NCBI GenBank assembly: GCA_903831255.1
Contig: CAIKWZ010000059.1
Location: 1 to 32,704 of the forward strand
DNA: 32,704 nt
Origin: an uncultured Alphaproteobacteria bacterium
GTDB taxonomy: Bacteria > Pseudomonadota > Alphaproteobacteria > Caulobacterales > Hyphomonadaceae
Direction: 5' to 3'
Shown: piece by piece, positions 30,117 through 32,704 of the stretch
How positions within the stretch are numbered: the stretch's first letter is position 1
Layout: the number at the start of each line of letters is the position of its first letter
Position numbers and translations under genes: made by a program
The notes under the pieces: generated by a model
The model's database searches: none
The model's input: the letters and a program-made list of their open reading frames with translations, nothing else
What the model was told of the DNA's origin: nothing

Positions 30117-30727
30117 GTGCGTACCGCACCGATTTCCCGAAGCCAGGCTAGCAGGGGCAATAGCGGCAGGCCTAAGATTGAGAAGTAATCTCCCTCTATA
30201 CGTTCGAACAGATGAATTCCGGTCTTTTCGATCTGATAAGCTCCGACGCTGGCTAGTATGTCGTCGCCTTCAGCCTCCACAAAATCGTCTATAAACTGAG
30301 GTGCCAGCCGTCTCATTGTTAAGCGTGGCCGGACCAGGTGTTTCCAGACCACCCGTCCCTCGATGCACCCAACGACCGCCGTTTGAAGATAATGCGATCT
30401 GCCAGATAACTCCAAGAGACGCTCCTTGGCTTCATGGCGGGTCGATGGTTTGTCGAAACCTTTGCCATCAAGATCGAGGATTTGGTCTGCGCCAATCACA
30501 ATTCCTTGCATTGTCTGACTTACCCGAAGGGCTTTCATCTCAGCGAGAATGACAGCCTGATCCGATAGACTTACGCCATCGCTTCGCATCGCGTCTTTCG
30601 CGGCGACTTCATCAACGTGAGATGTCATCGTTTCGAAATCAATCCCGGCGTTCGACAGCAGTTCACGTCTGATTTTGCTCTGGGAAGCAAGGATCAGACG
30701 CCTGTGCGAGGTTGCGTCTTGGGTCAT
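30113..30727 (-). CDS. Maf-family nucleoside triphosphate pyrophosphatase
   Basis: A 204-residue Maf protein: LILASQSKIRRELLSNAGIDFE at the N-terminus, VIGADQILDLDG with the catalytic Asp, KPSTRHEAKERLLELSGRSHYLQTAV, and GAYQIEKTGIHLFERIEGDYFSILGLPLLPLL. Maf enzymes hydrolyse modified or canonical pyrimidine NTPs (dTTP/UTP or m7GTP subtypes); I cannot assign the subtype. It overlaps both neighbours by four bases (ATGA). Confidence 0.93.
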   Translation of the reverse strand: MTQDATSHRRLILASQSKIRRELLSNAGIDFETMTSHVDEVAAKDAMRSDGVSLSDQAVILAEMKALRVSQTMQGIVIGADQILDLDGKGFDKPSTRHEAKERLLELSGRSHYLQTAVVGCIEGRVVWKHLVRPRLTMRRLAPQFIDDFVEAEGDDILASVGAYQIEKTGIHLFERIEGDYFSILGLPLLPLLAWLREIGAVRT

Positions 30728-31542
30728 CGCCTGCTCTCCTGAATGATGTTCAGGATTGCTGCGGCTGTTTCCTCAACTGATCGCCGGCTGACATCAATTG
30801 TCGGCCATTTCATTCGCACAAACAGCCTGTTGGCGTGAACGAGTTCATTCTTCACCGCATCTTCGTCAGCATAAACCGTTTCATGCTGTTCTTGCAGCGA
30901 CAAAAGACGATGCTTTCTGATCTGAACGAGACGATCAGGGGTTATCTTCAGGCCGACAACCAATGGAGCGTTATCCGACAGAATTTCCTCGGGAAGCTCA
31001 ACTCCCGGCACGATTGGAATGTTGGCGGCCTTCACTCCGCGATTTCCAAGGTAAACACAGGTCGGCGTCTTGGACGTGCGGCTAACGCCCACCAGCACCA
31101 CATCAGCGTTTCTCAAGGTCAAAGTGTTTTGACCATCATCGTGCTGGAGGGCGAAGTTGATCGATTCCATCCGTGCAAAGTACTCCGCATCAAGGTGATG
31201 CTGACCAGCGACTTTGTGAGCGGATTTGAGGCCCAAGTATCGGCTTAGAACATCAACAGCTGAATCAATGACGGGTAACGTCGGACACGATATGGCTCTG
31301 CAGTAGTTCTCGAGATAGGTTCTAAGTTCCTCATTCGTGATGGTGTAGAAGACCACCCCAGGTGCGCTTTCTATCTCCTTCAGGACTCGCTCGAGCTGCC
31401 GTTTCGAACGGATCAGGTAGTAGTTATGTTCGAGAGGTGCGACGTGATCGAACTGAGCGCAAGCAGCCCTCATCACAGCATTCAAAGTCTCCCCGGTGGA
31501 GTCAGAAACGAGGTGAACGTTGAAATACGTTTCTAGCGACAT
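30724..31542 (-). CDS. ppsR: Pyruvate, phosphate dikinase regulatory protein (DUF299)
   Basis: A 272-residue bifunctional serine/threonine kinase and pyrophosphorylase family that switches PPDK or PEP synthetase on and off. Typical elements are VHLVSDSTGETLNAVMRAA at the N-terminus, AGQHHLDAEYFARMESINFAL, the P-loop GVSRTSKTPTCVYLGNRG and RMKWPTIDVSRRSVEETAA. Whether the target is PpdK or PpsA is not decidable here. It is the first gene left of the putative origin, the same position as the DUF299 gene beside the Caulobacter origin. It overlaps maf by four bases. Confidence 0.95.
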   Translation of the reverse strand: MSLETYFNVHLVSDSTGETLNAVMRAACAQFDHVAPLEHNYYLIRSKRQLERVLKEIESAPGVVFYTITNEELRTYLENYCRAISCPTLPVIDSAVDVLSRYLGLKSAHKVAGQHHLDAEYFARMESINFALQHDDGQNTLTLRNADVVLVGVSRTSKTPTCVYLGNRGVKAANIPIVPGVELPEEILSDNAPLVVGLKITPDRLVQIRKHRLLSLQEQHETVYADEDAVKNELVHANRLFVRMKWPTIDVSRRSVEETAAAILNIIQESRR

Positions 31543-31685
31543 GCGCCGGTCCTGACTGAATTACTCAATGGACTGGTTAGCCTTCTGAGGAGCTTCTGTT
31601 AACAACTTTCGATGGAGTCGGCTCACCACTTTTCGTTCACAGCGTTCTCGACATGTGAGCTCCATGACGAGTGGTCGTTCGTCTG

Positions 31686-31701
31686 TTAATCACTTTTTAA
31701 C
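31686..31701 (+). promoter_or_regulatory. CtrA binding box 1
   Basis: TTAA-TCACTTT-TTAAC: exact match to the full CtrA consensus TTAA-N7-TTAAC, inside the putative origin. Confidence 0.7.
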
Positions 31702-31720
31702 CAGTCGCCAAAAGGCGTTC

Positions 31721-31736
31721 TTAAGACGCTGTTAAC
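31721..31736 (+). promoter_or_regulatory. CtrA binding box 2
   Basis: TTAA-GACGCTG-TTAAC: second exact full CtrA consensus, same orientation as box 1 and 35 bp downstream of it, measured start to start. Confidence 0.7.
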
Positions 31737-31791
31737 TATGTTTTTTCGTGACAGCGCTTATGGGGTGTCGACCCCGCACCACAATCATTGA

Positions 31792-31812
31792 TGTGAATGA
31801 GGCTGTGGGTAA
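31792..31812 (-). promoter_or_regulatory. Pair of DnaA-box-like nonamers
   Basis: On the minus strand TTACCCACA (31804-31812) and TCATTCACA (31792-31800) each differ from TTATNCACA at one position. They share orientation and are three bases apart, about one helical turn from start to start. Weak individually, more credible as a pair in a putative origin. Confidence 0.4.
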
Positions 31813-31911
31813 CCAGCCGCCTGTCAGCGATGATCAAGTTATCGACCGACTAGAAGACACTAGAATCTCTCTTTAAGAGTCTTATTCCTTAATCAGACAA
31901 GTGAAGCCGAA

Positions 31912-32704
31912 ATGCGCGACAAAAAACTTTTGAGAGCGCTGCGTGGCGTGAAGGACGAAACGCCTCCGGTCTGGCTCATGAGGCAAGCAGGACGACATCT
32001 CCCGGAGTATCGCGAACTCAGAGCAAGAGCTCGTGACTTTCTGGACTTTTGCTACTCCCCTTCCCTTGCTGCCGAAGCGACACTTCAGCCTGTCAGACGC
32101 TATGACATGGATGGCGCTATCCTGTTCGCCGATATTCTGCTGGTTCTTGACGCTCTGGGACGGGGTGTACGATTTCTCGAAGGTGAAGGCCCCCGAGTTG
32201 ATCCGGTCGAGCGCGGTCGAGATCTAGAGGCCGTTAGTCTTTCAACAGCTATGAATCGATTGGCTCCTATTGGAGAGACTGTGTCTCGCGTTCGCGCTGA
32301 ACTTTCTAACGATGCGACGCTTATAGGTTTTGCAGGAGCTCCCTGGACCGTCGCCGTTTATGCGATTGAGGGAAGAGGCGGCACTGATAAAACCCTGGCT
32401 CGTCAGTTCGGTTATCGAAATCCATCTGAATTGGAGCGGATCCTCGATCGCCTTGTAGATGTGTCCGCTCATTATCTTCACATGCAGGTGGAAGCAGGCG
32501 CCGATGTCGTCATGTTGTTTGACAGCTGGGCAGAGGGCCTACCTGAAGATGTTTTTGACGCTTGGGTGATTGAGCCGACGAGAAAACTGATCAGTCGATT
32601 ACGTGACCTTGGGGTGAAGGCGCCCATTATTGGTTTTCCCCGTGGTTCCGGCGGTATGATGCCTGAGTATGCAGAACGTACGGGTGCTGATGCGATAGGT
32701 TTGG
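31912..32704 (+). CDS. hemE: Uroporphyrinogen decarboxylase, 3' end cut by window edge
   Basis: The first 264 codons of about 345 are present, with no stop before the edge. HemE converts uroporphyrinogen III to coproporphyrinogen III in haem synthesis. Landmarks are VWLMRQAGRHLPEYRELRA (substrate-binding arginines), ILFADILLVLDALG with the catalytic Asp, FAGAPWTVAVYAIEG, DVVMLFDSWAEGL and IGFPRGSGG. The start at 31912 (MRDKKLLRALRG) has only a weak GTGAAG upstream. It is divergent from ppsR across the putative origin, as in Caulobacter. Confidence 0.96.
   Translation, partial: MRDKKLLRALRGVKDETPPVWLMRQAGRHLPEYRELRARARDFLDFCYSPSLAAEATLQPVRRYDMDGAILFADILLVLDALGRGVRFLEGEGPRVDPVERGRDLEAVSLSTAMNRLAPIGETVSRVRAELSNDATLIGFAGAPWTVAVYAIEGRGGTDKTLARQFGYRNPSELERILDRLVDVSAHYLHMQVEAGADVVMLFDSWAEGLPEDVFDAWVIEPTRKLISRLRDLGVKAPIIGFPRGSGGMMPEYAERTGADAIGL

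Follow-up and report, generated by a model that had tools for sequence, protein, structure and literature searches.

The gap between the divergent ppsR and hemE genes (31543–31911; 369 bp) is very probably the chromosome origin in this member of the Hyphomonadaceae, as the original prediction had placed it. Both the location and the targeting of the gap by CtrA are well supported by synteny, parS, comparative conservation, data from Hyphomonas neptunium and, weakly, GC skew; that CtrA binds and represses the origin in this organism we infer. Judged from the gaps compared across the family, a CtrA-box origin is the norm here.

Gene context and location of the probable origin

The window (the whole 32,704-nucleotide stretch of DNA that was analysed) corresponds to contig C59 of a 3.32-Mb draft genome in 76 contigs. 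Its open reading frames leave exactly 31543–31911 free between ppsR (30724–31542, minus strand; a pyruvate phosphate dikinase/PEP synthase regulator matching NF003742 above its cut-off) and hemE (31912–32703, plus strand), so that gene calls on both sides bear out the Caulobacter-like context claimed for the gap: hemE opposite ppsR, or the ppsR/RP001 gene, as in Caulobacter-type (Cori-like) origins. The score of hemE is slightly under its family cut-off because the gene is truncated by the contig end. The assembly breaks inside hemE at 32704, and the C-terminal remainder of the gene lies on the 4.2-kb contig C51 (L236), where it is followed by hemH, a hemJ-like gene (our label) and rho. On the other side, profile searches gave the order ppsR-maf-aroE-coaE-dnaQ-secB, with maf under its cut-offs. 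The gap has a GC content of 0.47, vs. 0.61 in a sample of the same genome, and a divergent gap of 353–427 bp is found at 99 of 101 loci in the family, the remaining two being truncated by a contig end.

All four perfect parS sites detected genome-wide are located on a 7-kb contig (L287; C4:67–350), directly before gidA-gidB-parA-parB-holA (the gid, par and holA names were assigned from the sequences, without a family search). The Cori-like placement of parABS on the hemE side is therefore seen here in two parts: parS and parAB on their own contig, C4, and the linkage to hemE in two single-contig relatives, where the whole order falls within about 10–12 kb of hemE and parS is 5–9 kb away. Within the window, one place resembles parS with three mismatches, which is chance level. 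The only dnaA match in the genome (full-length, E 5.8e-93, 311.9 bits vs. a curated cut-off of 343.9) is on contig C75, apart from the hemE and parS contigs; an origin beside dnaA, the outcome that would have told against the prediction, is thus not indicated.

Of the eight 4-kb bins of the window, seven have a negative GC skew; C51, read hemE-forward, has a skew of +0.09. In one relative (G078) negative skew gives way to positive around hemE and returns near the antipode; three of the 20 samples (at 0.51, 2.21 and 2.72 Mb) depart from this pattern. The skew of another (G042) is noisy and unclear, with a weak sign change at hemE itself in the wrong direction. According to excerpts of a study of H. 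neptunium, skew gave no clear result in that organism either, and the marker-frequency maximum lies close to hemE with parAB about 7 kb away (PMC6650430); an excerpt of a second study has a CtrA ChIP site adjoining ori (PMC7200025).

CtrA boxes in the gap and across the family

Two full (strict) CtrA boxes, defined as TTAA-N7-TTAAC, stand in direct orientation 35 bp apart, start to start, just as predicted: box 1, TTAATCACTTTTTAAC, at 31686–31701 on the plus strand (also perfect on the minus strand at 31685–31700), and box 2, TTAAGACGCTGTTAAC, at 31721–31736 on the plus strand (one mismatch on the minus strand). Box 1 starts 226 bp ahead of hemE and 144 bp ahead of ppsR; for box 2 the distances are 191 bp and 179 bp. 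When the gap was shuffled 5000 times with its dinucleotides preserved, two full boxes arose in none of the shuffles and at least one in seven. Across the whole 3.32-Mb genome the pattern has nine strand matches at seven places, two of which are in this gap, vs. two matches for the reversed control pattern. The other five places adjoin fliX/flgI, a Sel1-repeat gene (which we take to be PodJ-like) and two PAS histidine kinases, one of them with an EAL gene alongside; the fifth is near pcm. These neighbourhoods presumably resemble the CtrA regulon. The prediction depended on a ctrA gene being present, and an orthologue scores 409 bits (NF045991; cut-off 350). Exactly between the two boxes, at 31706–31717, there is also an inverted repeat, CGCC-AAAA-GGCG.

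From 105 genomes of the family we obtained 99 gaps, leaving out G091 and G001 (no hemE match), G072, G067, G098 and G042 (the last two pieces without ppsR). At least one full box was present in 76 of the 99 (63 with exactly one, 13 with two, 23 with none), vs. at most three genomes in any of 200 shuffles. A wider set of 80 hemE-relative loci yielded 72 divergent gaps, the other eight lacking a divergent ppsR inside 2.5 kb (for at least one, L046, owing to a contig end). With classes assigned from the record titles, and with “others” including titles that name no order, 20 of 24 Caulobacterales-titled gaps held a full box vs. one of 48 others. That single exception, L049, comes from a record titled “Alphaproteobacteria bacterium” and is possibly an unlabelled member of the Caulobacterales. 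An origin in this family can do without the strict box, since 23 of the 99 gaps, that of G078 included, are without one, as is the gap of G042. Genera differ in where the box stands relative to hemE (about −80, −155 to −160, −185 to −195 or −200 to −226), although their gaps are all of nearly the same length.

The two boxes had been read as a simplified variant of the five sites of Caulobacter, and this reading did not hold up: a single full box is usual in the family (63/99), and this lineage exceeds most of its genus by one, so the second box is better described as a gain than as a reduced Caulobacter set. Box 2 (31721) aligns with the CtrA box common to the other members of the genus compared, and box 1 (31686) is shared, among these members, only by this genome and its sister G094. 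One further member, G100, has a second box at a different place. Using paired boxes by themselves to locate origins was also considered and rejected: the pattern matches in 19 of the 105 genomes (reversed control, one), and 12 of the 19 matches are in the hemE gap.

DnaA-like boxes and other elements

The predicted DnaA-like boxes are present, and they are weak. In a scan allowing up to three mismatches, the best match, TTACCCACA (31804–31812, minus strand), has one mismatch and the others two or three; among these, TTCTCGACA (31645–31653, plus strand) falls at a family-conserved block with the consensus TATCCACAG, and TTATCGACC (31839–31847, plus strand) at another conserved block. Family-wide, DnaA-like boxes exceed their number in shuffles. 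The TTAAC half-site that had been noted is indeed at 31599, within a GTTAAC palindrome (31598–31603). In most other members of the genus the aligned position is occupied by a TGTGGACAA DnaA-like box, so the palindrome may be what is left of a DnaA box and not a CtrA half-site. The most AT-rich stretch, a candidate unwinding region, is at 31851–31900, where 40-bp windows go down to a GC content of 0.30. No match to the IHF consensus was found in the window.

CcrM sites: few here, dense in many relatives

The gap has the three GANTC (CcrM) sites that had been noted, at 31615–31619, 31863–31867 and 31877–31881, and no weight can be placed on them: three or more occur in 1897 of 5000 shuffles of this gap, which is chance level. 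A GANTC density far above chance, the mark of a methylation-dense origin, is absent from this gap and present in 56 of the 99 family gaps, each of these exceeding all 200 of its own shuffles. Together the 99 gaps hold 660 GANTC (shuffle mean 176.5, maximum 214), vs. 73–177 for seven control palindromic words of the same make-up. The enriched gaps come mainly from three of ten genera (this genus 11/13, g5 36/39, g6 1/1, g3 7/29, g4 1/3), and none of the 14 gaps of g2, g7, g8, g9 and g10 exceeds all of its shuffles. In this genus there are 25.9 GANTC per kb in the gap vs. 2.4 per kb in the flanks. Dense examples (L129 from G100, L127 from G092 and L122 from G078) carry 12–14 sites in about 400 bp, the highest count being 14 in 389 bp (G100). 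The wider set gave 21.7 per kb in five Hyphomonadaceae vs. 4.3 in 19 other Caulobacterales and 5.6 in 47 others, the last figure leaving out L071 with its 2.4-kb gap; the highest count among those 47 is that of Azospirillum lipoferum (L024), with 10 GANTC in 489 bp. Sampling 20 stretches of 20 kb from each of G078 and G042, with the origin deliberately included, we found the origin gap to be the densest 390-bp stretch in both (12 vs. 6 and 9 vs. 5).

Several of these sites are also conserved in place. GANTC is kept in at least 80% of sequences at six alignment columns in this genus (11 members) and at five in g5 (39 members), and no control word reaches more than one such column; g3 (29 members) has none. 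At the conserved sites of g5, variation at the free middle base is close to that of the background (0.380 vs. 0.356), suggesting that selection acts on the methylation motif as such. For this genus the middle base is less variable than the background (0.179 vs. 0.329) and gives no help to that argument. Members of this genus also carry a tandem GACTCGACTC 2–3 bp from the shared CtrA box.

The two exceptions to enrichment in this genus are this genome, with three GANTC in its gap, and its sister G094, with two. A midpoint-rooted PpsR tree, from which four of the 99 genomes with short PpsR pieces were left out, places both inside the genus beside a genome with 10 GANTC (support 0.84; genus node 0.62), and because of this position loss of the sites is the simpler reading. 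Loss of ccrM can be ruled out as its cause, since the gene is present (contig C42, 69% identity), as is gcrA. As a reader of the GANTC clusters, GcrA was rejected: of 1320 strand-GANTC, 34 fit its motif, which we take to be YGAKTCG, fewer than the roughly 6% to be expected. Nor is there a general trade-off between CtrA boxes and GANTC, as five two-box genomes of g5 have 6–8 GANTC and seven genomes of g8 have one box with 1–2 GANTC. What can be said is that the loss of GANTC coincides with the extra CtrA box in one lineage, that of this genome and its sister; being a single event, the coincidence cannot prove a link.

Discussion

The genome has all of ctrA, dnaA, gcrA and ccrM, and we consider it likely that the gap works as an origin under direct CtrA control. 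DnaA would load onto the several weak boxes and open the AT-rich stretch adjoining hemE; phosphorylated CtrA would occupy both full boxes in mid-gap, excluding DnaA and so holding non-replicating cells in G1, and initiation would go ahead once CtrA is removed. The binding and repression by CtrA, the exclusion of DnaA and the site of unwinding are the predicted parts of this scheme.

It is rather unlikely, though the most serious of the alternatives, that the boxes are instead CtrA-controlled promoter elements of hemE or ppsR with no role in replication, the gap still being the origin or near it. Their distances (226/191 bp before hemE, 144/179 bp before ppsR) would suit such a role, the other strict boxes in the genome adjoin genes, and CtrA may serve promoter activation at the Caulobacter origin too, according to an excerpt of PMC4468827. 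Promoter elements should sit uneasily with a box-to-hemE distance that depends on genus at a nearly constant gap length, and with the absence of full boxes from 47 of the 48 non-Caulobacterales-titled gaps that have the same gene pair.

An origin elsewhere, for example near dnaA, with the gap merely a conserved syntenic block, seems to us very improbable. The noisy skew of the sampled relatives G078 and G042 would allow it; against it stand the flanking of hemE by parS and parAB, dnaA on C75 away from both the hemE and the parS contigs, the concentration in the gap of CtrA boxes and (in relatives) of GANTC clusters, and the marker-frequency peak close to hemE in H. neptunium, as given in excerpts of PMC6650430. 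Least credible of all is that AT-rich sequence produced the boxes by chance: the gap does have a higher AT content than the window, yet two boxes never arose in the 5000 shuffles and the boxes are conserved family-wide. We therefore retain the CtrA-controlled origin as our reading of the gap.

The GANTC clusters raise a further, more tentative idea. Several Hyphomonadaceae genera could carry a selected cluster of CcrM sites, so that initiation is also gated by methylation, and this lineage could have stripped the cluster and added a second CtrA box, one “brake” being swapped for another; we regard this as possible and rather doubtful. The origins of C. crescentus and its close relatives contain several GANTC, and initiation control stays normal in a C. 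crescentus ccrM deletion, both according to an excerpt of PMC3973325 (the former citing Shaheen 2009); GANTC effects at a repABC origin appear in an excerpt of PMC11514494. Among the matches listed from the open literature, mostly titles and abstracts, there was no description of GANTC clusters at Hyphomonadaceae origins; Shaheen 2009 or other papers may include some of this. With ccrM kept, the near absence of GANTC here vs. the cluster in relatives is a natural comparison for whether CcrM ever controls initiation at a chromosome origin, a question that the deletion in C. crescentus answered in the negative. The distribution of full boxes, present in most family and Caulobacterales-titled gaps and in one of 48 others, likewise allows a test of how far in evolution CtrA control of the origin extends.

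In Caulobacter crescentus, hemE flanks the origin and parABS lies on the hemE side. The gap described here resembles Cori in being flanked by hemE and in having full CtrA boxes, weak DnaA boxes and parABS on the hemE side; it differs in having two full boxes vs. five high-affinity CtrA sites. Cori has those five CtrA sites together with G-boxes and W-boxes, according to an excerpt of PMC4468827. At 369 bp the gap is also shorter than 18 other Caulobacterales-titled gaps (Hyphomonadaceae and Robiginitomaculum excluded), which measure 478–574 bp. The oriC of Escherichia coli is dense in adenine-methylation sites, with GATC, Dam and SeqA. Many relatives of this genome are like it in having dense adenine-methylation sites, and differ in using GANTC and CcrM vs. 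GATC and Dam; a role of SeqA at the E. coli origin is given in an excerpt of PMC2865523. H. neptunium, of the same family, likewise has an origin close to hemE, parAB nearby and a CtrA ChIP site (excerpts of PMC6650430 and PMC7200025). A Caulobacter-type CtrA-box origin is of an ordinary kind, already indicated by experiment in this family, and what sets this genome apart is its two boxes and only three GANTC vs. family gaps that, among those examined, have zero to two full boxes and often many GANTC.
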